64,000 bases of DNA from an uncultured Verrucomicrobiota bacterium (GTDB lineage Bacteria; Verrucomicrobiota; Verrucomicrobiia; Opitutales; Opitutaceae): assembly GCA_903904685.1 (NCBI GenBank), contig CAIVDS010000056.1, forward strand, positions 158,280 through 222,279, given 5' to 3'. The notes below the pieces were generated by a model. The model searched no databases and was not told the origin of the DNA. It was given only the letters and a program-made list of their open reading frames with translations. The translations under genes and the position numbers were made by a program. The first letter of the stretch is position 1, and the number at the start of each line of letters is the position of its first letter. Below, one piece after another: positions 22,716 through 40,512 of the stretch.

Positions 22716-22737
22716 GGTAGCAGTTTCCTTCAGTGGG

Positions 22738-23553
22738 TTACTTGGTGAAGCGCCAGGTCACGTTGGAGCCGTGGATGGCCTCGTGGCAGCCCGCGTTCCA
22801 GCAGGTGTTGCCACCGCGCATCGGATCGTCGTGGGCGTTGGTCCCCGTTTTGGTGACTCCCATCACATTCACCAGGTTGTTGGTAGAACCGGGAGCACCA
22901 GCCGGCTGATTGAGGTGGCAGCGCAAGCAGAGGTTGGCGTCGCGAGCGACGAGCATCTTCTTGTTCACCGAACCATGCGGACTGTGACAAGCGACGCAGC
23001 CTTCGCGCAGCGCGCCGTGTTCGAATACAAACGGACCTTTTTGAGCGATGTGGCACTTGGTGCAAGTCTCGTTCTTACCCTCAAGCGCTAGGCCGGAGCC
23101 CTTGATGGCGTCGCCGCTATGAACATTGTGGCAATCCACGCAGCTGACTTTGCCGGCGAGCACCGGGTGGGTGTTCGGCAGGCTGAACTGGCCACGCTTG
23201 TCGAGGTGACACGCGAAACAGGCTTCGGGATTCTTCTTGGGATTGACGATGGTGCCACGACCGCCGCCGGCCTTCACGTGCAAGCTTCCCGGACCATGGC
23301 AGGCCTCGCAACCCGTGGCGCCGACCTTGGGATCGGCGATCGCTAGCTTGGCGTGGCTGGCCGACTTGAAGTGGTCGGTCTGATCAGCGTGACACTGTGC
23401 GCACTCCTTGGTGCCCACATAGGTCGCGCCCGGTATTTTGGCGGGCGCGAGGATTGCGCGATTAACGCTCACGCATCCGATAAGCACCAGTCCCCACAGG
23501 GCGATGCCTCCGAAAAGGAGAGAAGTTTTGGTTTTAAGCAGTCGTGAGATCAT
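22738..23553 (-). CDS. Octahaem MtrA/DmsE-like cytochrome c lipoprotein
   Basis: 271 residues. Residues 1-27 form a hydrophobic segment ending in a lipobox (VLIGC), so the protein is probably a lipoprotein. There are seven CxxCH sites (CAQCH, CEACH, CFACH, CVDCH, CTKCH, CVACH, CLRCH) and a last site CWNAGCH (CX4CH). The ending GCHEAIHGSN matches the C-terminus of the MtrA/DmsE/PioA family (CHSQIHGSN), and HPVLAGKVSCVDCHNVHSG is a family block. MtrA has ten haems, so this is a shortened version. It would sit inside or under the porin barrel and pass electrons between the periplasm and the surface. Confidence 0.88.
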   Translation of the reverse strand: MISRLLKTKTSLLFGGIALWGLVLIGCVSVNRAILAPAKIPGATYVGTKECAQCHADQTDHFKSASHAKLAIADPKVGATGCEACHGPGSLHVKAGGGRGTIVNPKKNPEACFACHLDKRGQFSLPNTHPVLAGKVSCVDCHNVHSGDAIKGSGLALEGKNETCTKCHIAQKGPFVFEHGALREGCVACHSPHGSVNKKMLVARDANLCLRCHLNQPAGAPGSTNNLVNVMGVTKTGTNAHDDPMRGGNTCWNAGCHEAIHGSNVTWRFTK

Positions 23554-24056: not shown

Positions 24057-24386
24057 ATGACCACCTCCCGCCGACTTCTCGTCCTCATAGCCGCCACCGC
24101 CACCGCCGCGCTTTACGGCGCCGACGCCCCCGCCAGCTGGCAGGAGCACTGCGCCAAGTGCCACGGAGACGACGGCAAAGGCGACACCAAAATGGGCCAC
24201 AAGCTCAACATCGGCGACTTTACCACTTCCGAGATGCAGACCAAGTTCACCGATGAACAGGCCGCCAAGGCCATCAAGACCGGCCTCACCGACGACAAGG
24301 GCAAGATGCGCATGAAGGCGATCGAGGGTCTGTCCGATGATCAAGTGAAGGCGCTCGTCACCTTTGTGCGCACGCTGAAGAAATAA
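24057..24386 (+). CDS. Small periplasmic monohaem class I cytochrome c
   Basis: 109 residues with a signal peptide (LLVLIAATATAALYGADAPA). A single CAKCHGDDGKGDTKMG site gives the proximal His, and Met in the KMRMKAIEG loop is the likely distal ligand. It ends VKALVTFVRTLKK, the usual C-terminal helix. It is likely a soluble electron shuttle. It is the first gene of a five-gene plus-strand run with the tetrahaem, iron-sulfur and NrfD subunits (22 bases to the next start). A paralogue is encoded at 36174-36509. Confidence 0.93.
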   Translation: MTTSRRLLVLIAATATAALYGADAPASWQEHCAKCHGDDGKGDTKMGHKLNIGDFTTSEMQTKFTDEQAAKAIKTGLTDDKGKMRMKAIEGLSDDQVKALVTFVRTLKK

Positions 24387-24408: not shown

Positions 24409-25077
24409 ATGGACCCACTCCCCCCTCTCCCTGACGGGAGGAACCGCGCCCGCACCGGTTATGTGCTCGGCGGGCTTGCAGTGCTCTTCGTCGCTCTCGC
24501 GATGCTGTTTCTCAGCACGATGAGAGAACATGTGAAACCGAGAAAGGCCATCCCGCTGGTCGATACCAAATTCCTCGCGACGACCCCTTGGCGCCAGACC
24601 TACGCCGATCTCGTGAAGGCGAAGGCGGATCTGTCCGACTACGACTGCTACGGCTGCCACGAGAAGAACAAGCCGCCCACGCTGCGCTTCGACGAGAACC
24701 AGAAGATCATCGTCCCGCAGGAGCATGTAAACATCGTGATGGGTCACGGATCACACGGCCGGAACAACCTTTGTTTCAACTGTCACAACGACAAAAATCT
24801 CACCACCCTGCAAGTGCGCGACGGTCGCGAGATCGGCTTCGATAACATCCCTCAACTCTGCGGCACTTGCCACGGTCCGAACTATCGCGACTGGGAAGCC
24901 GGCGCCCACGGCCGCACCAGCGGATACTGGGATCGCAGCAAAGGCGACATCGTCCGCCTAAGCTGCGCGAACTGCCACAATCCCCACTCACCCCGCATCC
25001 CGACGCGCGAACCAGCGCCCGGTCCCCATGCGCTGCGTGCCGTGGAAGAATCCAAACCGCACGACGCGGCCCACTGA
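24409..25077 (+). CDS. Membrane-anchored tetrahaem cytochrome c subunit (CbcS-like)
   Basis: 222 residues. One N-terminal helix (GYVLGGLAVLFVALAMLFL) looks like an uncleaved anchor, with the rest in the periplasm. Four haem sites are present: CYGCH, CFNCH, CGTCH and CANCH, plus several His residues that could be distal ligands (HVNIVMGHGSHG). The gene order cytochrome, four-cluster ferredoxin, NrfD matches the Geobacter Cbc4 (CbcSTU) and related quinone-interacting complexes. The expected role is to accept electrons from the iron-sulfur subunit and hand them to periplasmic cytochromes. The stop is 2 bases before the next ATG. Confidence 0.85.
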   Translation: MDPLPPLPDGRNRARTGYVLGGLAVLFVALAMLFLSTMREHVKPRKAIPLVDTKFLATTPWRQTYADLVKAKADLSDYDCYGCHEKNKPPTLRFDENQKIIVPQEHVNIVMGHGSHGRNNLCFNCHNDKNLTTLQVRDGREIGFDNIPQLCGTCHGPNYRDWEAGAHGRTSGYWDRSKGDIVRLSCANCHNPHSPRIPTREPAPGPHALRAVEESKPHDAAH

Positions 25078-25079
25078 CC

Positions 25080-26024
25080 ATGTCCTCTCCTTTTTCTTCG
25101 CCCGACAAGACATCCGACGCCGCGATGTCCCGCCGTAATTTCCTGCGTGGCACCGCCGCGTTAGGCGGTCTCACCGCGCTGGCCGCAAGCCTCTCCCCGC
25201 TGCTTGAGTTGGACGATCTGACGTCCACCGAGAAGTTTCTCCAGAAATACTACAAGGAGATGACGCCGGACGACATGTCCAAGGTGATCAAACGCATCTC
25301 CAACGAAGTAGAGCGGCAATACGGCGTGCGCCCCCATGTGCGCGACCTCAAGCCGATGGATGGCGTCGAGTTCGTTTACTGCCTCAACCTCACCCGCTGC
25401 ATCGGTTGCCGCAAATGCGTCCACGCCTGCGTCAACGAAAACAATCAGTCGCGCAATCCGGAGATCCAATACATCCGCGTGCTCAAGATGCCGCACGGCT
25501 CGATGGACGTCGAAAAAGGCAATCATACCTACGACGACAAGCATGTTCCCGATCCCGGCTATTTCTACATGCCGATCCAGTGCCAGCAGTGCCACAACCC
25601 GCCCTGCGTGAAAGTTTGCCCCGTCAACGCCACTTGGCAGGAGAAGGACGGTATCACGGTCATCGACTATGATTGGTGCATCGGTTGCCGCTACTGCGAG
25701 GCCGCCTGCCCTTACTGGGCGCGCCGTTTCAATTGGACGAAACCGCAGATTCCGAAAGAGCGCCTTAACCCCAACATGGCCTATCTCGGCAACCGTCCAC
25801 GCAAGCAGGGTGTGATGGAGAAATGCCATTTCTGCATCCAGCGTACCCGCGATGGCCGCTACCCGGCCTGCCTTGAGGTCTGTCCCGTCGGCGCGCGCAA
25901 GTTCGGCAACATCCTCGATCCAAATAGCGAGGTTTCCTACATTCTCCGAGAGAAACGGGTCTTTATCCAACTCAAGGAGGAAATGGGCACCAATCCACGG
26001 TTCTTCTACTACTTCGACAAATGA
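25080..26024 (+). CDS. Tat-exported ferredoxin subunit with four [4Fe-4S] clusters (CbcU/DsrO/HybA type)
   Basis: 314 residues from the ATG at 25080; the open frame reaches further 5' but overlaps the tetrahaem gene. A twin-arginine signal (SRRNFLRGTAALGG) marks export in folded form. Four cysteine sets follow: CIGCRKCVHAC, CQQCHNPPCVKVCP, CIGCRYCEAACP and CHFCIQRTRDGRYPACLEVC. These are typical of the electron-transfer subunit that pairs with NrfD-type membrane proteins. Its ATGA overlap with the next gene supports one complex. A DsrO-like assignment is also possible, but no dsrAB or other dsr genes are visible. Confidence 0.92.
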   Translation: MSSPFSSPDKTSDAAMSRRNFLRGTAALGGLTALAASLSPLLELDDLTSTEKFLQKYYKEMTPDDMSKVIKRISNEVERQYGVRPHVRDLKPMDGVEFVYCLNLTRCIGCRKCVHACVNENNQSRNPEIQYIRVLKMPHGSMDVEKGNHTYDDKHVPDPGYFYMPIQCQQCHNPPCVKVCPVNATWQEKDGITVIDYDWCIGCRYCEAACPYWARRFNWTKPQIPKERLNPNMAYLGNRPRKQGVMEKCHFCIQRTRDGRYPACLEVCPVGARKFGNILDPNSEVSYILREKRVFIQLKEEMGTNPRFFYYFDK

Positions 26025-27304
26025 TCACCGCCGCCCGCAACTACCTCGTGTTTCTACGTCGGTGCGCGCGCATCGCCTTCGTCGGCGACTGGCGCTACTA
26101 CGCATGGATGGGAGGCCTGACTATTGTTATCCTCTTTGGTATCAACGCATATGCCAAGCAACTGGTCGACGGCCTCATCGTCACCGGCATGAGCGACGAG
26201 GTGTCGTGGGGCGTTTACATCGCCAACTTCACCTTCCTCGTCGGTGTCGCGGCGGCGGCCGTAATGATGGTCATCCCCGTTTACATCTACGACAACGAGG
26301 AGCTGCACGACCTCGTGATTTTCGGTGAACTGCTCGCCGTGGCCGCCATCCTCATGTGCCTGTCCTTCGTCACCGTTGACCTTGGTCGGCCCGACCGCTT
26401 CTGGCATCTCATTCCGGGCCTCGGTCAGTTGAACTTCCCTAGGTCGATGCTCAGCTGGGACGTCATCGTGCTCAACGGCTACCTGCTGCTCAACGTCCAT
26501 ATCTGCGGCTATCTCCTCTATTGTCGTTACCAAGACAAGAAACCATCGAAGTGGTTCTACATTCCCTTCGTGTTCATCGCCATCGTTTGGGCGATTTCCA
26601 TTCACACCGTCACGGCCTTTCTCTACGTCGGTCTCGGTGGGCGTCCGTTTTGGAACGCATCCATCGTCGGCCCGCGCTTCCTCGCCTCGGCCTTCACCGC
26701 CGGTCCGGCGATCATCATCTTGGCTCTTCAGGTCATCCGCAGTTACACGAACTACCGCATCACCGACAAGGCACTGCTGACCCTGCGCGGCATCGTGCAA
26801 GTTTCGATGATCATCAATGTGTTTCTGCTGGTGTGCGAAATTTTCAAAGAATTCTACTCTGGGACGACCCACGGCGTGTCCGCAAAATACCTCTTCGTCG
26901 GTCTGCACGGGCATCATGCGCTGGTGCCTTGGATCTGGACCGCCATCGGCTTCAATCTCATCGCCATGGTCATCCTCGTGCTGCCGGTAAGCCGCAGCCT
27001 CAAATACCTCAACGTCGCCTGCGCGCTCTGCATCGTCGGCATCTGGATCGAAAAGGGCATGGGCTTGGTCATCCCCGGCTTTATTCCCACGCCGCTCGGT
27101 GCATTCGTCGAATACCTGCCTTCGCTCAACGAAACTCTCGTTTGCCTTGGCATCTGGGCCTTCGGCCTGCTGTGCTACACCGTTTTCCTGCGCATGGCTG
27201 TGCCGATCCTGCAGGGCCGCTTGGCCAAGGCCAACGAAGGCCAGCCTGAAATCCAAGGCGACGAACCGGCGTCTGTCGCGCCCGTCTCGCCAGCCACTCA
27301 TTGA
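26021..27304 (+). CDS. NrfD/PsrC-family quinone-interacting membrane subunit (CbcT/DsrP type)
   Basis: 427 residues with about ten transmembrane helices. Family landmarks are SWGVYIANFTFLVGVAAAA, GELLAVAAILMCLSF, VDLGRPDRFWHLIPG and NFPRSMLSWDVIVLNGY, all close to the DsrP/CbcT branch. NrfD-type proteins bind menaquinone or menaquinol near the periplasmic face and exchange electrons with the ferredoxin subunit. It starts inside the ferredoxin stop codon. The direction of electron flow cannot be told from sequence; with the porin conduit nearby, quinol oxidation is the likely direction. Confidence 0.93.
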   Translation: MITAARNYLVFLRRCARIAFVGDWRYYAWMGGLTIVILFGINAYAKQLVDGLIVTGMSDEVSWGVYIANFTFLVGVAAAAVMMVIPVYIYDNEELHDLVIFGELLAVAAILMCLSFVTVDLGRPDRFWHLIPGLGQLNFPRSMLSWDVIVLNGYLLLNVHICGYLLYCRYQDKKPSKWFYIPFVFIAIVWAISIHTVTAFLYVGLGGRPFWNASIVGPRFLASAFTAGPAIIILALQVIRSYTNYRITDKALLTLRGIVQVSMIINVFLLVCEIFKEFYSGTTHGVSAKYLFVGLHGHHALVPWIWTAIGFNLIAMVILVLPVSRSLKYLNVACALCIVGIWIEKGMGLVIPGFIPTPLGAFVEYLPSLNETLVCLGIWAFGLLCYTVFLRMAVPILQGRLAKANEGQPEIQGDEPASVAPVSPATH

Positions 27305-27333
27305 TCGCTGAGCGCCCAGCCGCACCCACCGCC

Positions 27334-27840
27334 ATGGCCCGACAACTCACCGCCGACGACGCCCGCCAATCGCTAACCGCACATGTTGAGACGAAGGGCG
27401 TCGAGATATTCGCGACCTACGGCCCGAAGCTCGACTGGGACGGCCTGCAACGACTGCTCGCCGATCGCACGCAGGTCCGTTATCCGTGTGAGATTGTTTT
27501 CGACGAGGCGTTGCTTCTGTCAGGAGAATTTGCCCATCCAGAGCCGAAAGGGAATACCCCCGAGGATGGTTTCACGATGGCGGTGCATCCTCTCTTCATC
27601 ACGCAGCCCGACCGCGTGCCCGCGCTTGTTCTCTACCAACTCGTGGCCGTGAACTACGGTACATTCGCCTCGTCCGACGAGGCGGAGACCTTTGGTGCCG
27701 CCGCGCTTGGCATCACGCGCGACGAATATTACGCGCTGCTTTGCGACTGCGCCGATCAACTCGGCAATGGCCCTGATGCAGAGCCTGTGGGTGCGCAGCC
27801 CTCCGGCTGCAGTGGCGGCACCTGCAACTGCGGCGGCTGA
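27334..27840 (+). CDS. Unknown protein with a C-terminal Cys/Gly tail, linked to the NrfD module
   Basis: 168 residues from the ATG at 27334; a TTG at 27301 that overlaps the nrfD stop is also possible. It is soluble, with no signal peptide. The C-terminus ends in CSGGTCNCGG, three cysteines in ten residues, with an earlier CDCADQLG, which suggests metal or cluster binding or a redox switch. The middle (RYPCEIVFDEALLLSGEFA, YQLVAVNYGTFA) matches nothing I know. Position immediately after the complex suggests an assembly or maturation role, which is inference only. Confidence 0.65.
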   Translation: MARQLTADDARQSLTAHVETKGVEIFATYGPKLDWDGLQRLLADRTQVRYPCEIVFDEALLLSGEFAHPEPKGNTPEDGFTMAVHPLFITQPDRVPALVLYQLVAVNYGTFASSDEAETFGAAALGITRDEYYALLCDCADQLGNGPDAEPVGAQPSGCSGGTCNCGG

Positions 27841-29582: not shown

Positions 29583-29820
29583 GGGGTCGGCTTACGCAGT
29601 TATTTGGAGTAAATGACTCTCTGACGCTTTCGCGCATTTGTCACGTAATATGGTTGATTTCGAAACACCAAGATAACGGGCAAGTTTCAGGAAAACTCTG
29701 CATCTTTTGATGACCGAGAAACGCACGGATTTGCGGCAAAAAGCGCCCCGCTTTGTTCAATGAATGCGAAGACAGAACTCACGCATGCCTCCACATTATA
29801 GTTTTAGAAAAGATCTACCC

Positions 29821-32082
29821 ATGCCACATCGCCAAAGGATGGTTTCATTTGTTCTAAGCTCGGCACGTGGTGCCCGGCAGGAGACCTCGCTGTGGTTATG
29901 CATGGTCATGGCGCTGCTAGTACCGACCGGCTGCCTGTTCGCCGCTGCCGAACCTTCGTCCGCTGCGAAACCTCCCGCCCAAAATTCCAACGCAGCCTGC
30001 CTAGAGTGCCATAGCGACGAAACGCTTTCGATGAAGAAAGCCGGTCTCAAAGTGTCGCTCTTCATCGACGGGAAAATCACAGGGAAATCCGTGCATCGCT
30101 CCCTCGATTGCATCGATTGTCACGAGAAATTCGACGGCGACAGTTCGCCGCATCGCAAACCGATGGTCACGGTCAATTGCGCATCCTGCCACGAAGATAC
30201 CGGAAAGAAGCACGCCTTTCATCCGCGCCTTTCGCAGTTGCCGACACCCGCCGGCAACGACACCTCCTGTCGCGAATGCCACGGGACGCACGCCATCGCA
30301 CCTGTGAAGAGCGCAACCTTTGCCTTCAACGACGGTGCGCAGCCCGACGCGTGCGGCCGATGTCACGCCACGGCACGCGATCATTTCGCAGCGTCGGCGC
30401 ACGGTCGCGCATTCGCCGCCAAGGAGAGCAATGCGCCCGATTGCCTCACCTGCCATCGCCAGCCCATCGCAGCGATCGCACCCGAGAAACTCACCCTCAC
30501 GCAAAAACTCGCGCAAACCAAGCAGTGCGAAGCGTGCCATGTCGGAAATAAAAATGTCGCCGGACATGCGTTGCGCGGCATGAAGTTTGCAGGATCGTTT
30601 GATCAGAGCGTGCACGGCGCGGCGCTGCTCGGCGGCAATGCGGAAGCCGCGAACTGCATCGATTGCCACGGGGCTCACGAGATGAACCGGGCGATGACCG
30701 CCAGCGCCAGAATGAACAAACTCCACGTCGCCGGGACCTGTGCGAAATGCCACGAGAAGATCGCCGGCGAGTTCGACACCAGTGTCCACGCCGGCGCGCT
30801 ACGAAAGGGCAATCTCGACTCTGCCACCTGCACGAATTGCCACGGCGAGCACGACATCCGCGCTCGCCGGGATCCGACGTCCCCCATCCACGCGAACAAC
30901 GTGGCGCAACAGGTCTGCGCCACCTGCCACGCATCGCTCCGGCTCACGCAGAAATACGGACTCGCCTCGCACACCTTCCAAACGTTCGAGGACAGTTATC
31001 ACGGACTGGCGGTTCGCGGCGGCGCGGTCGAAGTCGTCAACTGCGCGAGCTGCCACAGTTCGCACGCGATCAAGTCGCGAAACGACCCCACCTCGACGAT
31101 CAACAAGGCCAGTCTCGCAAAGACGTGCGGCCAGTGCCATCCCGGGGCCAACACGCGATTCTCTGTCGGGAAAGTTCACGTGAGCCCGGAAGCGGCCCGC
31201 GGGACGGGCGGCAATAATCCGATTCTCCATCTGATTTCGAGTCTCTACGTGATCCTGATCGTCGTGGTCGTCGGCGGGATGCTCCTGCACAACGTGCTCG
31301 ATTTATTTAAAAAAATCCGCCGCAAGCTCGCGATCCAGAAGGGTCTGATCCAGCCGGAGCCGGTCGCCCACCGCCTTTACCTGCGGATGACGGCGCACGA
31401 GCGGGTGCAGCACGCGACACTTATGTTGAGTTTCACGATGCTCGTCGTGACCGGATTCATGCTGCGTTATCCCGAGGCCTGGTGGGTGGTCGGGATTCGC
31501 AACGCGAGTGTGAACGCCTTCGAGTGGCGGGGCTGGATCCACCGGATCGCTGGCGCCGTGCTGCTCGCGTCGGGCATATGGCATGCCGGCTATCTCCTTT
31601 TCACGAAACCAGGCCGCTCGCTCCTCCTCGATCTGCTCCCGGAAAAGCGCGATTTCACGGATCCGTTCGCCGTGTTGAAATACAATCTGGGCCTCGCTCC
31701 CGCGAAGCCTGCGTTCGGCCGTTTCAGCTACATCGAGAAAACTGAATACTGGGCCATGATGTGGGGTTCGATCCTGATGGGCGTCACCGGCGTGATCCTG
31801 TGGTTCGACAACACCTCGATCGGGCTCTTCACCAAACTCGGCTTCGACATCTCGCGCACCATTCACTTCTACGAGGCGATCCTCGCGACGCTCGCGATTG
31901 TCGTCTGGCATTTCTATTTCGTGATCTTCAACCCCGACGTTTATCCGATGAATCTCGCCTGGCTCACGGGTCGGATGTCGGAAGAAGAAATGGCGGAGGA
32001 GCACCCCGCCGAGCTCGCGCGCATCAAGGCCCTGCAAGCCAAGATGGGCGACAAGGTTCCACCGGCAACGCCGCCACATTGA
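29821..32082 (+). CDS. CbcL-like fusion: 13-haem cytochrome c domain plus dihaem cytochrome b domain
   Basis: 753 residues from the ATG at 29821; in-frame ATGs at 29764, 29785 and 29839 are alternatives. A signal segment (LWLCMVMALLVPTGCLFAAA) precedes thirteen CxxCH sites, many in the pattern CxxCHGxH(D/E). Then come a helix (ISSLYVILIVVVVGGMLL) and a cytochrome b domain of about four helices with paired His, e.g. ERVQHATLMLS, WIHRIAGAVLLASGIWH and ISRTIHFYEAILATLAIVVWH. Geobacter CbcL has the same build with nine c haems and works as a quinol dehydrogenase for low-potential extracellular acceptors. The extra haems could extend the reach across the periplasm. Confidence 0.9.
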   Translation: MPHRQRMVSFVLSSARGARQETSLWLCMVMALLVPTGCLFAAAEPSSAAKPPAQNSNAACLECHSDETLSMKKAGLKVSLFIDGKITGKSVHRSLDCIDCHEKFDGDSSPHRKPMVTVNCASCHEDTGKKHAFHPRLSQLPTPAGNDTSCRECHGTHAIAPVKSATFAFNDGAQPDACGRCHATARDHFAASAHGRAFAAKESNAPDCLTCHRQPIAAIAPEKLTLTQKLAQTKQCEACHVGNKNVAGHALRGMKFAGSFDQSVHGAALLGGNAEAANCIDCHGAHEMNRAMTASARMNKLHVAGTCAKCHEKIAGEFDTSVHAGALRKGNLDSATCTNCHGEHDIRARRDPTSPIHANNVAQQVCATCHASLRLTQKYGLASHTFQTFEDSYHGLAVRGGAVEVVNCASCHSSHAIKSRNDPTSTINKASLAKTCGQCHPGANTRFSVGKVHVSPEAARGTGGNNPILHLISSLYVILIVVVVGGMLLHNVLDLFKKIRRKLAIQKGLIQPEPVAHRLYLRMTAHERVQHATLMLSFTMLVVTGFMLRYPEAWWVVGIRNASVNAFEWRGWIHRIAGAVLLASGIWHAGYLLFTKPGRSLLLDLLPEKRDFTDPFAVLKYNLGLAPAKPAFGRFSYIEKTEYWAMMWGSILMGVTGVILWFDNTSIGLFTKLGFDISRTIHFYEAILATLAIVVWHFYFVIFNPDVYPMNLAWLTGRMSEEEMAEEHPAELARIKALQAKMGDKVPPATPPH

Positions 32083-32392
32083 CCGCCCCCCCACGGGGGG
32101 ACAACCGGAGCCTTCAATCGCCCCACTTCCGATTCCGAAGGGGCTTCGGTTTGCTGTCAGCACAGTAAAGAGCCCATCCACAGCCGCGAACTACCGGACA
32201 ACGCCACTCTCGCTCGAAGTGAACATCGTCACAGTCCGGCCGGCCCACCGATCGCAGGTCTGCCGTAATCAGAGGATCCAAAAAGGATAAAACAATCGCG
32301 CGCAGCTTGATGTGGCGGACGGTTTGATAAGTTTATCTTCGATCATGTCGCGTCAGGCACGCGGGCCGGACGCGACACGCTCTGACAAGCTC
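32083..32392. other. Spacer between the two convergent CbcL-like genes, with two hairpins
   Basis: 310 bases without a supported gene. A GC hairpin at 32086-32100 (six C, three-base loop, six G) follows the 13-haem gene within 4 bases of its stop. A perfect 9-bp stem at 32346-32377 (TGTCGCGTC/GACGCGACA) follows the 11-haem gene. Neither has a clear U-run, so they are candidate transcript ends rather than textbook terminators. Confidence 0.5.
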
Positions 32393-34570
32393 TCAATGGC
32401 CGAGCCGTGAGATCATCGCATAGACGATCAGCACGAGCAGCACAAGGCCGGTGCCGAAGAAGATAAAGCCAAAGGCCTTCGAGATGTTCTTCCTACCCTC
32501 CCAGTCGTCGGCCTTGATGCGGTAAACATCAAGACGACCGGCCGCCACCAAGCGGTCATACCAGCGCTTCCGCTCGTGCAGCATCTCCGTTTTCGAGATG
32601 CGGCCCGAGAAGATCACCGTGTCCATCGGGAACTTCTCGATGCGGAAGTGAGTGTTGAAAAAGTGGAATGAGAAGATGAAGCCCGCGGCGAGCAGCGCCT
32701 CGTCGGAGTGGACCACGAGAGCGATGTTGATCACCCAACCTGGCATAAAGTGGGTGAAGAAATTCGGGAACCACATGATCAGACCCGAGAATCCGATGAT
32801 CGCCACACCCCAGAACACCGCGAAGTAGTCAAAGCGCTCCCAGTAAGTCCAACGATCGAACTGCGGGCGCGGGCCCTTGCCGAAGAACCATTTGTTGTGC
32901 GCCAGGAAATCATGCCAGTCCTGCATCGATGGAACCATCGAATCGGGGCCGAAGACCGTGGACCACACCCGACGCAACGAGAACTTGCCGGTCGCCGGAT
33001 CGCGCAGTCGCTGGCGCTTGGCCCAGAAATTCTTCATGAGGCCGGAGACGTGCATCACGAAGTAGGCAAAGGTCACGACCGCCGCGTAGTGGTGCAGGGT
33101 GCGCGCAACCTCGGCGCTGCCGATAAGGCGGAACATCACCTTCGCCCATTCGGTGTAGTAGAACTTCAACGGCATGCCGGTGATCACCAACGCGAGGAAA
33201 CTCGTCACCATCATCAGGTGCAAGTAGCGCTCAAAGGGCGTGAAGCGCGTGAACACGTCGTCGTCCGCGTGCGTGAGGATCTTCGCCTCACGGAATGTCT
33301 TCGAATCATGAAGATACAGGTAGATCGATCGGACCAGCCAGAGTAGTGTGTGCAGGCCGAAGAAAACAAATACGCTTACCAGCAGCACAGTCATGAACCA
33401 GAAAACTTTGTTCAGGATCGGGTAGTTAGCCTTGTCGAGCGGGTTGGCATGCGGCTGGTATTGGGTGAATCGCTCGGTAACGCCGGGGTGGCATTGCTGA
33501 CAGGTGCCGACGATTTTGTCTTTGTGCAGTCGCGAGCGAGGATCGCTGACGGGGAAAACATCGTGGTGGCCGTGGCAGTCGTAGCAGGCGGCCACATCGG
33601 AGGCGACGTTGGGCTGGCCGAGGGCCATCGCCTTGCCGTGGTAGGTTTCGCGATAGTGCGCAAGACGGTCCTGGTGACACTTGCCGCAACTCTGGTCGCT
33701 CTGGCCCTTGAAGTGTGCGGTGGCAGGCTTCTCAATGTCGTGCGAGCTGTGGCAATCGGTGCAGACAGGCCCCTTTTGGTCGCCTTTCAAGAGCAACTGG
33801 CCGTGGATGCTCTGATTATAGATATCCTCGATGCCGACGTGGCATTTGCCGCAGGAGGCCGCAATGTTGGCGTGGTTCGTATGCGAATCCTTGTCGATGC
33901 TGCGCTTGATGTCGTGGACGCCGTGACAGTCGTTACACGAGGGCGCGACGATCAGACCCATTTTCACGAGAGCACGACCATGGATGCTGTCGAGGTAGTG
34001 GCCGGCGGACTGCTGCTGGCCCATGCGATAATCCATGGTAATCTTCGGGTTGTCGTGGCACTTGCCGCAGGTCTTGGAGAGGTTGAACTTGAAGACCGGC
34101 GAATCGGCCTGCTTCACCGGCGCGATATCGTGCGAGCCATGACAACTGACACAGGCGGCGGCCTCGGAGGCCCCGAGTTTATGGCTCATGCCATGGATGC
34201 TCGCGGCGTAGTCCGCGGCGGGTTTCGTGTGGCACGACACACACTGCGCAGGCGCAAGCTTCGAGGGATGCGGCACCTCCTTGATGTCGGCGTGGCAATC
34301 AACGCAGTTAAGTTTGCCGTGAACGGACTTCTTGAAAACCTCGGGACGAACGCCCTTCCAGACGGCCGGCTCGCCTTTCTTCAACGGTTTGAATTCCGCC
34401 TCGTGACAATCCATGCAATCGCCGTTCGGCACAGCAAGCGGCGCAACGACGACAACCGGTTCGGCGGCCTGTGCAGAAGCGAACAGGCAGATCAACAGCG
34501 TAGGCAAACGGCACACAAGGCGCAGCGCGATCATGTTGGTTAAGCCAGCATGCGCACGAGCGGTTTCCAT
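32393..34570 (-). CDS. CbcL-like fusion: 11-haem cytochrome c domain plus dihaem cytochrome b domain
   Basis: 725 residues; a start at 34534 would give a shorter signal peptide (MIALRLVCRLPTLLICLFA). Eleven CxxCH sites lie in residues ~50-400 (CMDCH, CVDCH, CVSCH twice, CGKCH three times, CNDCH, CTDCH, CYDCH, CQQCH), often as CxDCHGxHD. A membrane helix and a b-type domain follow, with His in ERYLHLMMVTSFLALV, VARTLHHYAAVVTFAYFVMH and VVHSDEALLAAGFIFSFHFFNTH. A last helix (FIFFGTGLVLLVLIVYAM) anchors the C-terminus. It starts 10 bases after the ImcH-like gene, so the two are probably co-transcribed. It is paralogous to the 13-haem protein but lies on the opposite strand. Confidence 0.9.
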   Translation of the reverse strand: METARAHAGLTNMIALRLVCRLPTLLICLFASAQAAEPVVVVAPLAVPNGDCMDCHEAEFKPLKKGEPAVWKGVRPEVFKKSVHGKLNCVDCHADIKEVPHPSKLAPAQCVSCHTKPAADYAASIHGMSHKLGASEAAACVSCHGSHDIAPVKQADSPVFKFNLSKTCGKCHDNPKITMDYRMGQQQSAGHYLDSIHGRALVKMGLIVAPSCNDCHGVHDIKRSIDKDSHTNHANIAASCGKCHVGIEDIYNQSIHGQLLLKGDQKGPVCTDCHSSHDIEKPATAHFKGQSDQSCGKCHQDRLAHYRETYHGKAMALGQPNVASDVAACYDCHGHHDVFPVSDPRSRLHKDKIVGTCQQCHPGVTERFTQYQPHANPLDKANYPILNKVFWFMTVLLVSVFVFFGLHTLLWLVRSIYLYLHDSKTFREAKILTHADDDVFTRFTPFERYLHLMMVTSFLALVITGMPLKFYYTEWAKVMFRLIGSAEVARTLHHYAAVVTFAYFVMHVSGLMKNFWAKRQRLRDPATGKFSLRRVWSTVFGPDSMVPSMQDWHDFLAHNKWFFGKGPRPQFDRWTYWERFDYFAVFWGVAIIGFSGLIMWFPNFFTHFMPGWVINIALVVHSDEALLAAGFIFSFHFFNTHFRIEKFPMDTVIFSGRISKTEMLHERKRWYDRLVAAGRLDVYRIKADDWEGRKNISKAFGFIFFGTGLVLLVLIVYAMISRLGH

Positions 34571-34580
34571 AAACAGGAGC

Positions 34581-36071
34581 CTACTTCTGGATGCCGCCGT
34601 TATGGCAATCTGAACACGTCAGGTCCGGATCAAGGTCGCCACCGGGATGCTTGAAGTCCTGCCCCTGCGCCGAAAGCGCCTGCAGATCACTCCCTTTGCC
34701 CTGCGTGAGGATGATGTGGCAGGATTTGCAGTCGTTGGCCTTCACCGACTCGCCTGCGGCCGTCTTGTGTTTCTCGTCGTGGCAGCGGAAGCACCCCAAC
34801 CAATCCTTGTGCCCGATGTTGTTCGGATAAACGCGCCAGTCCGCCTTGCGGTCCGGGAAAATCGTCTCGGCATAAAGACGCTGCACCTCCACGATTGTCG
34901 CAGGCAACTCCGGAGCACCGGCATATTTAGCCTCCAAGAAAGATGCGATTTTTGGCGGAGCATCAGCGGTGGTCGTAATTTCCTTCTGCGTCATCGCCTG
35001 CACGGCGACGCGTTTCAAGGCGGGCAATTGCATGCTCAGCGCGCCGGCGGCCATCGCATGCTCGACGACTTCGTTGGCCGTGGGGAAAACATGCGCGGGA
35101 CGGTTGTGGCAATCCATACAGTCCATAACGCGGATCTGTGCGGCCACCGGTTCACCCTTGAAGGCCTCGGTGCGATAAACGTGCGAAGTGCCGTTCTTCA
35201 GGTTTGTCACGCGCATCCAAGGGATGTCCTGGCGCTTTTCATCAGCGGCAAAATATTCCACACGACTGTCTGCATTCACATGCCAGTGAATGCCGCCGAT
35301 CGGGCTGCCCGGCTGAGTCATATTCACCCGCATCAGCATGCGGATATTGTAGGGAGTGTTTTTCTTGTCCGACAGGAAATGCTCGGCGTCCACGTCGATG
35401 TTACCGTGGAATTTTTCAGGCCAGTGGCACTTTTCGCAGGTGTCCTGGGCGGGGCGGAGATTCTTGAGCGGGGTCGCGATAGGCCGCTTGTAATTGTTTA
35501 ACGTGTAGGCGATCAACTGGTGTGTGCCGTTGATCTTGGCCTTGATAAACCACTGTGCGCCGGAACCGACGTGACACTCGACGCAATCAACCCGGGCATG
35601 GGCCCCGCGTTTGTAGGCCGTCAACTCGGGATTCATCGCACGATGGCAAACCTCTCCGCAAAACTGCGTGGACTCAGCGTAATGATAGGTCTGGTAGCTA
35701 CCAAAGGCGGTCAGCATTAGAAATATCACGCCGCCTGTGCCAAAAATGACGAGGGCGCGACGATGCTGCTGGTCAGAAAAATCAAGACGCCATTTATCCG
35801 ACGTTACGCCAGCATGCTTGATCTGCCACCGCCATTGGGCCCACGCACCGAAAAAACCGAGCGTAATACCGATGATCAGTATACCCGGCACAATCAGATA
35901 AGTGATAATGCCAAGGTAGGGATTCTTTTCCCCCTGCGTGAAATCCATCCACACGAACAGCGCAAACGAGAAGAGTGCGGCGACCGCCAACACACCGCCA
36001 ATAGCACTGATCCAATTATTAAAAAGTGAGCGCGGTTTTACCGGCTCAGATGGAGGGATTGATTCGGGCAT
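34581..36071 (-). CDS. ImcH-like heptahaem NapC/NirT-family inner-membrane cytochrome c
   Basis: 496 residues. Three N-terminal helices (AIGGVLAVAALFSFALFVW, IITYLIVPGILIIGITLGFF, ALVIFGTGGVIFLMLTAF) lead into a NapC/NirT head: CGEVCHRAMNPE (a CX3CH site) and CVECHVGSG. Five more sites follow (CEKCH, CMDCH, CFRCH, CKSCH, CSDCH), seven in total. Geobacter ImcH is also a NapC/NirT-like seven-haem protein with three helices; it oxidises menaquinol when high-potential acceptors are used. NapC-type first haems sit at the quinol site. The equivalence is inferred from architecture. It begins the ImcH-CbcL minus-strand pair. Confidence 0.87.
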   Translation of the reverse strand: MPESIPPSEPVKPRSLFNNWISAIGGVLAVAALFSFALFVWMDFTQGEKNPYLGIITYLIVPGILIIGITLGFFGAWAQWRWQIKHAGVTSDKWRLDFSDQQHRRALVIFGTGGVIFLMLTAFGSYQTYHYAESTQFCGEVCHRAMNPELTAYKRGAHARVDCVECHVGSGAQWFIKAKINGTHQLIAYTLNNYKRPIATPLKNLRPAQDTCEKCHWPEKFHGNIDVDAEHFLSDKKNTPYNIRMLMRVNMTQPGSPIGGIHWHVNADSRVEYFAADEKRQDIPWMRVTNLKNGTSHVYRTEAFKGEPVAAQIRVMDCMDCHNRPAHVFPTANEVVEHAMAAGALSMQLPALKRVAVQAMTQKEITTTADAPPKIASFLEAKYAGAPELPATIVEVQRLYAETIFPDRKADWRVYPNNIGHKDWLGCFRCHDEKHKTAAGESVKANDCKSCHIILTQGKGSDLQALSAQGQDFKHPGGDLDPDLTCSDCHNGGIQK

Positions 36072-36137
36072 GAAGATAGAATTGAAAGTAAATGCAGATA
36101 CCCCGCCTACTCACGGGCGTGCGTGACTGTCCACACC

Positions 36138-36160
36138 GGCCGGTCGCCAAGCGACCGGCC
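36138..36160. terminator. Perfect 10-bp hairpin between the monohaem and ImcH-like genes
   Basis: GGCCGGTCGC/GCGACCGGCC with a three-base loop, 13 bases after the monohaem cytochrome stop on the minus strand. No U-run follows on that strand. It may stabilise or partly terminate the upstream message while allowing read-through into the ImcH-like gene. Confidence 0.45.
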
Positions 36161-36173
36161 AAAGAAATAAGGC

Positions 36174-36509
36174 TCAGGACTTAAATTTGCGGATGTGGCC
36201 GACCAAATCCTTGACCTCGTCCTTGGTGAGATCTGCCCCGAAGGCCTTCATCTTCTCCTTGCCGCCATCGGTGATGCCATTGGTGATGGCCTTGGTGATC
36301 TCTTCGTCGGTCATCTTGGCCTGAACTGCGGCATCCGTGTAGTCCCTCAGTTTAAGCTTCTTGCCGATCTTGGTCTCACCCTTGCCGTCGGCGCCGTGGC
36401 ACTTCGTGCAGAGGTTTTCCCAATTTTCCGACACCGGAGCAGCTTGGGTCATAACGGAGGCAAACAGCATGGCCAAACCAGCCAGCGTGATTTTGGATGA
36501 ATTTTTCAT
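36174..36509 (-). CDS. Small periplasmic monohaem class I cytochrome c
   Basis: 111 residues with a signal peptide (ITLAGLAMLFASVMTQAAP). One haem site, CTKCHGADGKGETKIG, with Met in KEKMKAFG as the likely distal ligand. It ends VKDLVGHIRKFKS. It is clearly paralogous to the cytochrome at 24057 (same length, same DGKG and LKL/LNI blocks). It precedes the ImcH-like and 11-haem genes on the same strand, so each of the two minus and plus transcription units in the island has its own soluble carrier candidate. Confidence 0.93.
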   Translation of the reverse strand: MKNSSKITLAGLAMLFASVMTQAAPVSENWENLCTKCHGADGKGETKIGKKLKLRDYTDAAVQAKMTDEEITKAITNGITDGGKEKMKAFGADLTKDEVKDLVGHIRKFKS

Positions 36510-36799
36510 TTTATTTATAAGTTTTGCTATGAGACGAGGAAGACGATTGCGATAACGTGATTAGTATATCTTAACACTCAGGCCTATGGCTGTGCATGCT
36601 TTGCCATCATATGCGCAGCCCTTGCCACGCGCCGATAGGCAGCTCTAACCTTAGAACACCTTCCTCCCGTCATCCCACACAACCTCTGCCTACGACAGGC
36701 CAAAAAATGCGCAGTGCTTCAAGGTGCAGTCTGCCATAGTTACTCACCACTCGGATAATCAAACCGCATCCGTCTCATAAGACCATTTCACCCTCCTCT
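36510..36799. other. Divergent promoter region before the monohaem and lipoprotein genes, no gene seen
   Basis: 290 bases between two divergent starts. AT content is higher near both ends. I see no clear -35/-10 pair, no FNR-type palindrome and no riboswitch core. Confidence 0.4.
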
Positions 36800-37453
36800 A
36801 TGTTTCGTTCACTCGTCCTGATTACCGCCATCCTGACCTTCCTTACCGCAGGATGCCGCGACCGCTCGATCGCTTCTTACCAGACTCCCAAGGAAACCGA
36901 CGCCTCGGCCATGCCCACCGTTGAAAGCCCTGCCGCCATGCCACCAATGCCCGCAGTCGCTCCGACCGCAAGCGCCCCCACCGATGTACCCGTCACACAA
37001 GCCGCCGTCATGCCAACCGGTCTCACCCTCACTTGGACCGCCCCCGCCGCTTGGCAGCCAAAAGCCCTCGGCACAATGCGCAAAGGCAGTTTCACCGTCT
37101 CGGGCAAAGACGGAGCCACCGCCGATCTTTCCATCATCGCCTTACCCGGCGCGGTGGGCGGCGAACTCGCCAATATCAACCGCTGGCGCGGCCAAGTTTC
37201 CCTCGCGCCCATCGCCGAAACCGAACTCGCCGGTGCCACCACCCGAGTCGTCGGCGGCGACCTCACGTTCACCGTCGTCGATCTCGTCGGCACGGGAGAC
37301 CAGGCGCAGCGCATCCTCGGCGCAATGGTGCCTTTCGACCAGTCGATGTGGTTCTTCAAACTCAGCGGACCCGCCGCCCTCGTCCTCGATCAAAAATCCG
37401 CTTTCCTCTCCTTCCTTCAAACCGTCAAGGCCTCCAAGCCCTCCGCCCAATGA
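36800..37453 (+). CDS. Lipoprotein of unknown function preceding ccsBA
   Basis: 217 residues. The signal peptide ends in a lipobox (LTAGC, Cys near residue 19). A Pro/Ala/Thr-rich linker of ~60 residues follows, then a ~140-residue domain with SFTVSGKDGATADLSIIALP, GELANINRWRGQVSL and QSMWFFKLSGPAALV. The linker suggests that the domain is held away from the membrane. The stop overlaps the ccsBA start in an ATGA, so the two are translated together, and a role near haem delivery or cytochrome c assembly is possible but not shown. Confidence 0.7.
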   Translation: MFRSLVLITAILTFLTAGCRDRSIASYQTPKETDASAMPTVESPAAMPPMPAVAPTASAPTDVPVTQAAVMPTGLTLTWTAPAAWQPKALGTMRKGSFTVSGKDGATADLSIIALPGAVGGELANINRWRGQVSLAPIAETELAGATTRVVGGDLTFTVVDLVGTGDQAQRILGAMVPFDQSMWFFKLSGPAALVLDQKSAFLSFLQTVKASKPSAQ

Positions 37454-40400
37454 GCGAGATACTCCGCTATTTCCGCGACTTTTTTGTCTCGATCAAACTC
37501 ACTGTCATCCTGATCGCGTTCTCCATCCTGCTGGTCTTTGCGGCCACGCTCGACCAGACGAACCTCGGAGTCTGGGGCATCCAGCAAAAGTGGTTTCGCA
37601 CCTTCATCGTTTTTCAGGACGTTAACGGCATCGCGCTCCCGCTCTTCCCGGGCGGATACCTCGTTGGCGGCCTGCTGCTCGTCAACCTCGTTGCCGCGCA
37701 CATCTACCGCTTCAAGCTCACTTGGCGGAAATCCGGCATCCTTCTGGCGCACATCGGCCTGATCATGCTGCTCGTCGGCGAACTCCTCACTGGTATCTGG
37801 CAAGAGGAATACTTCATGCGCCTGAACAACGGCGAGACGAAGAACTATGCCGAAAGCTATCAGCTGAACGAGCTCGCCATCACCAACACCAGCAACCCCT
37901 CGTTCGACGAGGTCGTCGCCGTTCCAGATGACCTTCTCGCCAGCCACACGCCGGTGCAGCATCCGAAACTTCCGTTCCGTGTCGTCCCCAAAGTCTTTTA
38001 TCCTAACTCGGTCCTTCAGGCCCGCAAAGCCGACAGCACAGCGCCCACGCTCGCCACCGTCGGTGACGGACTCTCCATCGACGCCGCGCCCCAGGCCATG
38101 ACCTACAAGCAGGACGAATCCAACGTCCCCTCCGCTTACATCGAACTCGTCGCTCCCGATGCCTCGCTCGGCACCTTTCTTGTATCCACCGGACTGACCG
38201 CCTCGCAGACCTTCGACTACGCCGGCAAAACATGGAAAATCTCCCTCCGCCAGAAACGCCTCTACCGGCCCTTCTCGCTCACCCTGCAGAAATTCAGCCA
38301 CGATCGCTACGCCGGCACTGACATTCCGAAGAATTTTTCCAGCCGCATCCACCTGTCCACCCCCGATGGCCGCGACGACCGCGACGTGGTCATCTACATG
38401 AACAACCCGCTGCGCTACGCCGGCCTTACGTTCTATCAGGCCGGTTTCGCCAATAACGACCGCACCACCGTGCTCCAAGTCGTGCGCAACCCGTCCTGGT
38501 TGCTTCCCTACGTCGCCTGTTCTGTCATGGCCGCCGGCCTGCTCATCCAGTTCGGTATCCACCTCCTCGGCTTCTTTTCCCGCCGTCGCCTGACCGCCAA
38601 GTCGGCGGGTGCCGTTGGTGACGCGAGTCCTTCATCCCGGCCCTCGCTCGTCTCCCTCGCCCGCCAAAATCCATTCCCGCTGACCGTCCTCGTCCTCACC
38701 TGCGTGATCGTTGCGGCCTCCCTGATCCCCACACGCAACGCCGGCGCCTTCGGCCTCGCCGCCTTCGGTCGCCTGCCGACGCTCGTCAACGGCCGCCTCA
38801 AGCCCCTCGACACCGTCGCCCGCACCACGCTGCTCGCCACCCAAGGCCGCCAGCGCGTCGTCGCCGCCGATGGCCGTTCGCTCACGCCGGTTGAGTGGTT
38901 GCTCGACGTCCTCTATCGCCCCGAGGTCGCCGACACCTACCAGACCTTCGAGATCGTGCATCCCGAAGTGCTCACCCTCGTCAACCTCATGCCCGAAGAC
39001 GGAGCCGGGAAAAAACGATTCTCTCTCGACCAACTCCGCAAAGGGCTGCCCGAGCTTGAACGCCAGTCCAGCCTCGCCGACGGCGTCGACGCCCCCGTGC
39101 GCACACCCTTCCAGCGCGCAGTCATCCAGCTTCGAGACAATATCATCCTCTACCAACGCCTGCAGGCCAGCCTCGTCCCTCCTGGCGTTGACCACTACCT
39201 CGACGCGGCGGCCAAGTTCGGGACCGTCATCCCCGCCGGCCTCGAAGCCCTCCGCGCCCAGCGTGCCGGCCAGCCCCACGACGCCACGCTCACCAAAAGC
39301 CTGCTCGAACTGAGCCAGATATTCACCTCGCTGGATTCCATGGGCTACCTTCTGCCGATCCCTCCCGAAGCCGGGATGGACCAGCCCTCAAGCTGGAAGA
39401 ATGCCGGAGCCTCGCTACAGGAAAGCCTCACGACCGGCCGCGTGAATCCCTCCGTCGCCACCTATATCGCCCTCGGCCTCGCATGGCGTGATCAACAGTC
39501 CGAGGCCTTCAACGCCGCCGTGAAGTCCTATCGCTCGCAACTTGAAACCGCCATCCCTGCACGTCTCACGAAGTGTGACGTCGAGGCGCGCTTCAATGCC
39601 GCGCAACCTTTCTACACGAGCATGATGCTCTACGTCGCCGCGTTTATCCTCGCCGTGGTTTCATGGTTGAAATGGCCCCAGGCGCTCGGTCGCTCCGCCT
39701 TCCTGCTGGTCGCCGTCGCCTTCGTGGTCGCCAGCGTCGGCATCCTCACGCGCATGTGGCTCGAAAGCCGCCCGCCCGTCACCAACCTCTACTCGTCCGC
39801 GCTCTTCGTCGGCTGGGGCGCCGTCGCCCTTTGCCTCGTGCTCGAAGCCGTCTATAAAAACGCCATCGGCAGCGTCGCCGCCGGCCTGATCGGTTTCGCC
39901 ACCTTGCTCATCGCCCACCACCTCTCGCTCGGCGGCGACACGATGGAAATGATGCGCGCCGTGCTCGATTCCAACTTTTGGCTCGCGACGCACGTCGTCA
40001 CCGTGACGGTCGGCTATGCCGCCACCTTCCTCGCCGGCTTTCTTGCTCTCATCTATGTGCTGCGCGGCGCGTTCACCCGGTCGCTCGACGCCAAAACCGC
40101 CGAGGCGCTCACCAAGATGGTCTATGGCACCGTCTGCTTCGCCACGCTCTTCAGCTTTGTCGGCACGGTGCTTGGCGGCATCTGGGCCGACCAGTCGTGG
40201 GGCCGCTTCTGGGGCTGGGATCCCAAGGAAAACGGCGCGCTTATCATCGTGCTTTGGAACGCGCTCATTCTCCACGCCCGCTGGGGCGGCCTCGTGAAAC
40301 AACGCGGCCTCATGGCCCTCGCAATCTTCGGGAACATCGTCACCGCCTGGAGTTGGTTTGGCGTGAACATGCTCGGCGTCGGCCTGCACAGCTACGGCTT

Positions 40401-40512
40401 CATGGACTCGGCCTTCTGGTGGCTGATCGCCTTCGTTGCCAGTCAGGTCGCCATGATGCTCCTGCTCGCCCTCCCCTCAAAAATCGCGCCCAACACGCAA
40501 CCGGCGACCTGA
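37450..40512 (+). CDS. ccsBA: Fused cytochrome c synthase CcsBA (ResB-CcsA), System II
   Basis: 1020 residues from the ATG at 37450; the frame extends further 5' but that part overlaps the lipoprotein. Residues ~1-380 are ResB-like: helices, a large periplasmic domain and YMNNPLRYAGLTFYQAGF. The C-terminal ~350 residues are CcsA-like with the haem-handling WWD motif (SWGRFWGWDPKENGAL) and flanking His. CcsBA exports haem and attaches it to CxxCH motifs. About 45 such sites are encoded in the 20 kb before it, so co-location fits its job. A ~300-residue periplasmic segment between the two halves is long for the family. Confidence 0.93.
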   Translation: MSEILRYFRDFFVSIKLTVILIAFSILLVFAATLDQTNLGVWGIQQKWFRTFIVFQDVNGIALPLFPGGYLVGGLLLVNLVAAHIYRFKLTWRKSGILLAHIGLIMLLVGELLTGIWQEEYFMRLNNGETKNYAESYQLNELAITNTSNPSFDEVVAVPDDLLASHTPVQHPKLPFRVVPKVFYPNSVLQARKADSTAPTLATVGDGLSIDAAPQAMTYKQDESNVPSAYIELVAPDASLGTFLVSTGLTASQTFDYAGKTWKISLRQKRLYRPFSLTLQKFSHDRYAGTDIPKNFSSRIHLSTPDGRDDRDVVIYMNNPLRYAGLTFYQAGFANNDRTTVLQVVRNPSWLLPYVACSVMAAGLLIQFGIHLLGFFSRRRLTAKSAGAVGDASPSSRPSLVSLARQNPFPLTVLVLTCVIVAASLIPTRNAGAFGLAAFGRLPTLVNGRLKPLDTVARTTLLATQGRQRVVAADGRSLTPVEWLLDVLYRPEVADTYQTFEIVHPEVLTLVNLMPEDGAGKKRFSLDQLRKGLPELERQSSLADGVDAPVRTPFQRAVIQLRDNIILYQRLQASLVPPGVDHYLDAAAKFGTVIPAGLEALRAQRAGQPHDATLTKSLLELSQIFTSLDSMGYLLPIPPEAGMDQPSSWKNAGASLQESLTTGRVNPSVATYIALGLAWRDQQSEAFNAAVKSYRSQLETAIPARLTKCDVEARFNAAQPFYTSMMLYVAAFILAVVSWLKWPQALGRSAFLLVAVAFVVASVGILTRMWLESRPPVTNLYSSALFVGWGAVALCLVLEAVYKNAIGSVAAGLIGFATLLIAHHLSLGGDTMEMMRAVLDSNFWLATHVVTVTVGYAATFLAGFLALIYVLRGAFTRSLDAKTAEALTKMVYGTVCFATLFSFVGTVLGGIWADQSWGRFWGWDPKENGALIIVLWNALILHARWGGLVKQRGLMALAIFGNIVTAWSWFGVNMLGVGLHSYGFMDSAFWWLIAFVASQVAMMLLLALPSKIAPNTQPAT

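Follow-up and report, generated by a model that had tools for sequence, protein, structure and literature searches.

How electrons leave the quinol pool and cross the periplasm is the question raised by a gene, here named A13, in a 64,000-nucleotide stretch of DNA (the window; contig CAIVDS010000056.1) from the 3.2-Mb draft genome of an uncultured bacterium of the Opitutaceae, phylum Verrucomicrobiota (assembly GCA_903904685.1). A13 encodes a multihaem cytochrome c domain fused to a dihaem cytochrome b domain. A sequence-only reading of the window had taken the product for a CbcL-like protein whose thirteen c haems could carry electrons from quinol directly to a porin-cytochrome, bypassing soluble carriers. 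Our analysis identifies A13 as a longer member of a known family, not a new kind of machine, whose probable task is to move electrons from respiration outward, toward the cell surface. More precisely, and with a probability of about 0.6, A13 would act as a quinol exit of the CbcL/MtrH/MtoC type that feeds an outer-membrane conduit via periplasmic acceptors. The gene and its parts, in window coordinates, are the following:

29821..32082, forward strand: A13, a 13-haem c / dihaem b fusion of 753 amino acids (772 with the in-frame ATG at 29764), defined by 13 CxxCH motifs, Pfam and the match to FdnI
29998..30192, forward strand: three-haem head, CxxCH at residues 60, 97 and 120 (spacing 37 and 23), common to 9- and 11-haem relatives
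30199..30588, forward strand: internal stretch with haems 4-7, approximately residues 127-256, missing from six 9-haem relatives in a 16-protein alignment
31243..32082, forward strand: b domain, residues 475-753, with the FdnI-aligned histidines H531, H574, H682 and H697

A predicted membrane protein with thirteen haem sites

The open frame from 29764 or 29821 to 32082 contains exactly 13 CxxCH motifs, all upstream of the cytochrome b domain; no clear ribosome-binding site was seen by eye ahead of either ATG. When the A13 sequence was shuffled 20,000 times, the mean number of motifs was 0.056 and the maximum 3, which, together with the conservation of the motifs in relatives, rules out chance or a frame artefact as their origin. 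The N-terminal part is matched by the Pfam models Cytochrome_C7, Paired_CXXCH_1 and Cytochrom_c3_2, and residues 523-705 by Ni_hydr_CYTB, a model of cytochrome b561 type (expectation value, E, 1.8e-11; 44.6 bits, cut-off 30.1). A sigma-70 promoter scan of positions 29400-36600 returned none where shuffling predicts 3.1, a result that is uninformative.

Structural and profile comparisons of the b domain lead to the same protein. With the A13 model as query, Foldseek gave Escherichia coli FdnI (formate dehydrogenase-N subunit gamma, 1kqf_C) as the best match and the sole one at E <= 0.001 (E 3.5e-4), and a profile built from 13 b domains reached the same chain at E 2.2e-10; a search of solved structures with full-length A13 returned two weak multihaem matches. 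In the profile alignment H18, H57, H155 and H169 of FdnI, which we take to be its haem-b ligands, paired H18/H169 and H57/H155, fall on H531, H574, H682 and H697 of A13. These four residues are invariant in all 35 rows of the A13 alignment and in all 16 rows of an alignment that includes 9- and 11-haem relatives, and H588 is likewise invariant. FdnI is like A13 in the fold of the b domain and in the position of each of the four haem-b histidines; unlike A13, it is a separate small subunit of FdnGHI and has no c haems. Five long b-domain helices appear in the model (residues 467-506, 525-549, 570-594, 637-666 and 672-702), and hydropathy also gives five for A13, the signal not counted.

Thus the proposal of thirteen CxxCH sites ahead of a dihaem-type b domain is borne out by the motif count, by Pfam and by the aligned histidines, whose check against FdnI had been called for; Pfam, Foldseek, the profile search and the conserved histidines also show A13 to be a CbcL-like c-b fusion with a b domain of the FdnI/HydC type. 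A13 is, as predicted from these features, a membrane protein with thirteen haem sites.

Regarding the axial ligands, thirteen histidines of the c domain outside the motifs are kept in 29 or more of the 31 A13-type rows (residues 92, 111, 131, 134, 157, 194, 265, 286, 323, 344, 394, 415 and 453), the runner-up, residue 188, being kept in 23. Thirteen additional conserved histidines are enough for thirteen bis-histidine haems, and A13 probably contains thirteen such c haems, with which the conserved histidines agree by count only. The nine haems of Geobacter CbcL have been found to be bis-histidine by spectroscopy (PMC9129911; here and below, statements attributed to published papers cover a part of each paper).

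The overall shape of the c domain is a separate matter. Residues 167-461 of the A13 model align to the wire-like cytochrome MtrA (6r2q_A) with a Z score of 8.2 and a root-mean-square deviation of 5.3 over 210 residues. Hydroxylamine-oxidoreductase-type chains score equally well (Z 8-9), and such values are commonplace, so that a straight, MtrA-like wire is not established.

Haem number increases in pairs

A13 has a paralogue in the window, B11, which has the same architecture with 11 CxxCH motifs and is about 27% identical to it. We collected 71 A13-like and B11-like homologues in which the c and b parts lie within one frame, and counted 13 motifs in 36 of them, 11 in 23, 9 in six, 17 in three, and 23, 18 and 12 in one each; the number is odd in 69 of the 71. 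This set includes one frame that ends within the b domain (L012; L numbers denote homologue loci, G numbers genomes) and at least one pair probably from the same genome (L032/L067). It excludes open-ended fragments (among them L059, and L087 with its 18 motifs), the duplicates L006 and L007, the short frame L053 (5 motifs) and the split proteins L060-L062 (18 motifs), L064 (11) and L065-L066 (9).

Motif spacing follows a simple pattern: the head motifs are usually 37-38 and 21-23 residues apart, and those of a two-haem module are mostly separated by 28 residues, with 30 or 42-44 from one module to the next. Other lengths occur in the last modules of B11 and in the rows with 17 or 23 haems. Read from the motifs, the haem number grows in pairs, as three head haems plus n two-haem modules, where n = 3, 4, 5, 7 and 10 corresponds to 9, 11, 13, 17 and 23 haems. 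Both even rows look like motif losses, given that L058 is without one head motif and L057 has a single 60-residue gap at an expected motif site; the split 18-haem proteins (L060-L062) have the same gap, of 60-61 residues. Of the 31 A13-type rows, 30 carry 13 motifs and L058 carries 12. Nearly all of them are verrucomicrobial, and most come from Opitutaceae; L014 belongs to a different family within the order, and L052 to an Ignavibacteriae bacterium.

Six 9-haem relatives from other families of Verrucomicrobiota are without a stretch of about 130 residues that in A13 carries haems 4-7, and 11-haem relatives have a shorter internal stretch with one haem pair. The extra modules are accordingly assigned to this region because haems 8-13 match better in sequence; since the modules are repeats, spacing alone would permit the missing pairs to lie elsewhere, and this location appears less certain than the haem count. 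In a b-domain tree of 52 chosen rows, support values of the Shimodaira-Hasegawa-like approximate likelihood ratio test (SH-aLRT) are 98 for the 9-haem clade, 96 for the A-type 11-haem clade and 98 for the verrucomicrobial 13-haem clade; the 12-haem row falls inside the last, and the 13-haem protein of the Ignavibacteriae bacterium (L052) outside it. The 9-, 11-, 13-, 17- and 18-haem clades form a polytomy, and because their order is unsupported the direction of change is not polarised, so that 'expansion' is not implied. The series of 9, 11, 13, 17 and 23 haems nonetheless offers a natural set for asking whether a longer chain alters rate, capacity or partner choice.

As a side observation, L060-L062 and L064-L066, from Ignavibacteria, Bacteroidetes, Acidobacteria and Anaerolineales records, have the c and b parts as separate adjoining genes, which points to at least one event of splitting or joining in the history of the fusion.

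Relation to the CbcL/MtrH/MtoC family

By motif number and b domain, A13 is assigned to the CbcL/MtrH/MtoC family, its comparison with Geobacter CbcL being by description only. The family has been described from 15 phyla, with 3-23 CX2CH motifs and four homologues from Verrucomicrobia (Zhong and Shi, PMC6295460). The sequence-only reading correctly gave nine c haems for Geobacter CbcL (PMC9129911, PMC6295460). A departure from nine is not unusual: the family spans 3-23 motifs (PMC6295460), and 9, 11, 12, 13, 17, 18 and 23 occur in our own set. In common with the family, A13 has an N-terminal multihaem c domain, its haems plausibly all bis-histidine, fused to an FdnI/HydC-like dihaem b domain, and family genes are sometimes found near MtrAB-type genes (PMC6295460, PMC9129911). 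It differs from Geobacter CbcL in having 13 haem sites in about 420 amino acids, as against 9 in 250, and from its same-phylum 9-haem relatives in the four-haem internal stretch.

We found no description of A13 in the literature on CbcL, ImcH and MtrAB in Opitutaceae or Verrucomicrobia, the supplement that lists the four verrucomicrobial homologues (PMC6295460) being outside the scope of this search; it is quite possible that a 13-haem member is already among those four. What the present work adds is the pairwise rule of haem number (3 + 2n) and an island of candidate quinol-linked proteins.

A gene island with a putative outer-membrane conduit

A13 lies within an island at 20.4-40.5 kilobases (kb) of the window, whose other members are as follows:

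20430..22715, reverse strand: MtrB-like outer-membrane barrel, 26 strands in the model, best Foldseek match MtrB (6r2q_B, E 4.6e-13)
22738..23553, reverse strand: MtrA/DmsE-like cytochrome, seven CX2CH and one CX4CH (eight haem sites)
24057..24386, forward strand: small monohaem cytochrome c, 109 amino acids, signal-like N-terminus by eye, PF00034 and PF13442 above cut-off
24409..25077, forward strand: tetrahaem cytochrome c with an N-terminal hydrophobic anchor
25107..26024, forward strand: iron-sulfur (FeS) protein with a twin-arginine translocation (Tat) signal, DsrO/CbcT-like, start approximate (DsrO score 167.6, under the cut-off of 200)
26021..27304, forward strand: NrfD/DsrP-type membrane quinone subunit (PF03916; NCBIfam DsrP 425.9 bits, cut-off 350)
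27301..27840, forward strand: conserved 179-amino-acid protein with a cysteine-rich C-terminal tail
27855-29582, reverse strand: DUF2339 membrane protein
32393..34570, reverse strand: B11, 11-haem c / dihaem b paralogue, 725 amino acids, convergent (tail to tail) with A13
34581..36071, reverse strand: ImcH-like protein, 496 amino acids, three N-terminal hydrophobic segments, NapC/NirT region PF03264, six CX2CH and one CX3CH
36174..36509, reverse strand: small monohaem cytochrome c, 111 amino acids, signal-like N-terminus by eye, PF13442 and PF00034 above cut-off
37033..40512, forward strand: fused ResB/CcsA cytochrome c maturation protein, start approximate

The two genes at 20430-23553 resemble MtrAB, an MtrB-like barrel adjoining an MtrA-like multihaem cytochrome. 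The barrel model has a mean predicted local distance difference test (pLDDT) of 67.6, with the match to MtrB ahead of siderophore-receptor barrels, and the cytochrome matches NCBIfam models of the DmsE/MtrA type under cut-off. With 8 haem sites and 26 strands, the pair agrees with the clusters described by He et al. (2017, PMC5615132) in Verrucomicrobia including Opitutus, which combine a porin of at least 20 strands with a periplasmic cytochrome of eight haem sites. In the part of that paper considered here the inner-membrane step is labelled merely 'ET in IM' (PMC5615132), a step for which A13, B11 and the ImcH-like protein are candidates. The island, which also has the NrfD module, thus offers in one place concrete candidates for this step in the extracellular respiration proposed for Verrucomicrobia. 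The ImcH-like protein, likened to ImcH by description, has three N-terminal segments, a NapC/NirT-like region and seven haem motifs, the seventh being CX3CH instead of the CX2CH of Geobacter ImcH.

From these components a path can be proposed. Menaquinol would be oxidised at the FdnI-like b domain, as expected from the family, and electrons would cross the membrane via two b haems held by H531, H574, H682 and H697, then pass along the thirteen probably bis-histidine c haems, a three-haem head followed by five two-haem modules. Neighbourhood and co-occurrence suggest a hand-over to periplasmic acceptors, most likely the monohaem cytochromes of the island, and from there to the 8-haem MtrA-like/MtrB-like conduit and on to humics, Fe(III) or another external acceptor. 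A13, B11, the ImcH-like protein and the NrfD module may represent parallel quinol exits, perhaps for different acceptor potentials; in Geobacter, ImcH, CbcL and CbcBA suit different acceptor potentials (PMC12307469).

The same components could work in the opposite direction. A13 would then be a quinone reductase, as has been proposed for MtoC, drawing electrons from the periplasm with Fe(II), reduced humics or a partner cell as their source. The b domain of A13 is of FdnI type, and a domain of this type acts as a quinone reductase in FdnGHI, which counts for reverse flow. So does the fact that Fe(II) oxidisers as well as Fe(III) reducers possess the family, no sequence feature telling direction in the published survey as far as it is used here (PMC6295460). 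The company that A13 keeps argues otherwise: an ImcH-like protein and an NrfD module lie alongside, ImcH homologues being reported in that part of the survey solely from Fe(III) reducers (PMC6295460), and the porin-cytochromes of the phylum have been proposed to export electrons to humics in anoxic bog water (PMC5615132). We consider reverse flow unlikely, and electron export through A13 remains the preferred reading.

Distribution and co-occurrence

Strong A13 matches are found in 11 of 56 near genomes, the window's own included; G004 was dropped from this set, its match being of the B11 type. Across the phylum, 30 of 387 genomes match at E <= 0.001. Thirteen of the 30 lie outside the class, and the one fused homologue read in each has 9 motifs in six genomes, 11 in five, 23 in one and 18 in one (open-ended); three weak same-class matches (G066, G210 and G338) were left out of this phylum reading. 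In 8 of the 13 out-of-class genomes a second homologue is encoded on the same strand, no more than about 3 kb away, and paired CbcL-like proteins are therefore not peculiar to the window. A tblastn search of plasmids with A13 found nothing.

The genes of the proposed path tend to occur in the same genomes. Counting strong matches only, and with hypergeometric P values that ignore kinship, an MtrA-like gene is present in 10 of the 11 A13 genomes versus 13 of 56 overall (P 8e-8; 3e-7 without the window's own genome), an ImcH-like gene in all 11 versus 13 of 56 (P 5e-10; 2e-9) and an NrfD gene in 7 versus 10 of 56 (P 1e-4; 5e-4). Neighbours were counted at 23 verrucomicrobial A13 loci of 4 to 22 kb, whose flanks are often cut: a porin or MtrA-like gene lies at 11 of them, NrfD at 11, B11 at nine and an ImcH-like gene at seven. 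The MtrA-like gene is divergent from A13 and within 2 kb of it at five loci (L032, L033, L045, L046 and L059). At one of these, L032, the ImcH-like gene adjoins A13 and the MtrA/MtrB-like pair lies on the opposite side, an arrangement that is a small addition to the survey of Zhong and Shi, in the consulted part of which no mtrAB stands beside imcH (PMC6295460).

Several observations weigh against the proposed role. In G015 and G025 megabases of a single contig separate A13 from the MtrA-like and ImcH-like genes, and in G033 A13 is on a different contig from them; G008, a same-genus genome that is 96% complete in 350 contigs, has A13 with no MtrA-like gene detected. The structure model of A13 is of moderate confidence only (mean pLDDT 66.8, predicted template modelling score 0.50), and its b domain has five long helices, not the six usual for the CbcL/MtrH/MtoC family, for which exceptions with five or four are published (PMC6295460). 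The A13 island is not a fixed unit. One may then suppose that A13 donates to an acceptor in the periplasm or to some other respiratory acceptor, the outer-membrane conduit not being involved, as the separation of the genes in G015, G025 and G033 and the case of G008 would suggest, along with the converse in G004, G020 and G021, where an MtrA-like gene is present and A13 was not detected. The strong co-occurrence of A13 with an MtrA-like gene and the divergent pairs at five loci speak against this alternative, which we hold to be distinctly improbable compared with a conduit-linked quinol exit.

Soluble carriers or direct docking

The remaining question is whether A13 could reach the conduit by itself. 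In the sequence-only reading it would dock straight onto the porin-cytochrome and soluble carriers would be superfluous, which, if true, would be an unusual way across the periplasm; present evidence points in the opposite direction. Two small monohaem cytochromes are encoded in the island, and of the 21 verrucomicrobial A13 loci that extend over 10 kb or more, 15 have similar genes, one of them directly upstream of A13 in L049 and in L050; PF13442 also matches three other places in the window's own genome. Geometry points the same way. The periplasm of Shewanella measures 235 ± 37 Å, with a lower limit of about 200 Å, and its MtrAB complex is 105 Å long and extends at most 55 Å into the periplasm (PMC5971433). 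Scaling the MtrAB length by haem number, a generous procedure of our own applied to these dimensions, gives about 137 Å for 13 haems, to which the protruding part of an eight-haem conduit would add about 34 Å; the total of about 171 Å falls short of the Shewanella minimum (PMC5971433). In addition, A13 and the conduit genes are far apart in several of the genomes discussed above.

In favour of direct docking, part of the A13 model aligns to the wire-like MtrA, at a Z score shared with other folds, the two genes lie within 2 kb of each other at five loci, and no small multihaem carrier was seen: PF14522, PF14537, PF09699 and PF02085 match no frame below 200 amino acids in the genome. Because of the monohaem cytochromes, the short estimated reach and the distant genes in relatives, a bypass of carriers is not supported; A13 probably does not dispense with them, and we regard direct docking as very improbable. 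The same holds for its most elaborate form, which we would place at the far end of what is plausible, in which the five-module c domain would be a rigid MtrA-like wire set end to end on the 8-haem conduit, forming a carrier-free chain from quinol to the surface, with a haem number (3 + 2n) tuned to envelope distance by the addition of dihaem modules and with monohaem cytochromes serving the ImcH-like and NrfD branches only. For a quinol exit that works through carriers there is precedent in the family, as the periplasmic domain of CbcL reduces PpcA (PMC9129911). The extra dihaem modules of A13 would lengthen the chain and could hold four more electrons, the need for carriers not thereby being removed.

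Additional features of the island and its relatives

The segment 24409-27304 has the order c-type cytochrome, FeS protein and NrfD-type subunit, as in Geobacter Cbc4 (CbcSTU) and DsrJOP, from which it differs by its tetrahaem cytochrome and by the extra 179-amino-acid protein. The latter, which gave no Pfam or NCBIfam match at E 0.001, goes with NrfD in 11 relative loci. A further difference from Cbc4 and DsrJOP is an in-frame, mid-protein insert in the NrfD/DsrP-type subunit, present in 9 of the 11 relative loci that hold NrfD near A13. In the four loci tested with Pfam the insert is a cyclic-nucleotide-binding domain (PF00027, 62.6-69.5 bits, cut-off 27.5):

L031:4310-6019, NrfD with PF00027 insert
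L034:5656-7353, NrfD with PF00027 insert
L037:3789-5549, NrfD with PF00027 insert
L039:2507-4216, NrfD with PF00027 insert

Similar inserts occur in L035, L040, L041, L042 and L043, and the copies of the window (26021-27304), L032 and L047 have none. The domain suggests that insert-bearing NrfD may be a quinone oxidoreductase gated by cyclic nucleotide.

The DUF2339 gene is often found near A13: 13 of the 23 verrucomicrobial loci have it. L035, L039 and L042 encode a second FeS protein between this gene and the NrfD module, at about 5.3-6.5 kb in each case; it is about 31% identical to that of the window (Pfam was run on L035 alone) and suggests a putative additional redox module.

Finally, a putative second porin-cytochrome cluster lies outside the window in the same genome (L103:8379-16303, contig C54). 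It comprises a 568-amino-acid protein with 10 CxxCH motifs, a 780-amino-acid possible porin (weak Alginate_exp match, under cut-off) and a 1,291-amino-acid protein with 10 CxxCH motifs and an LVIVD repeat.

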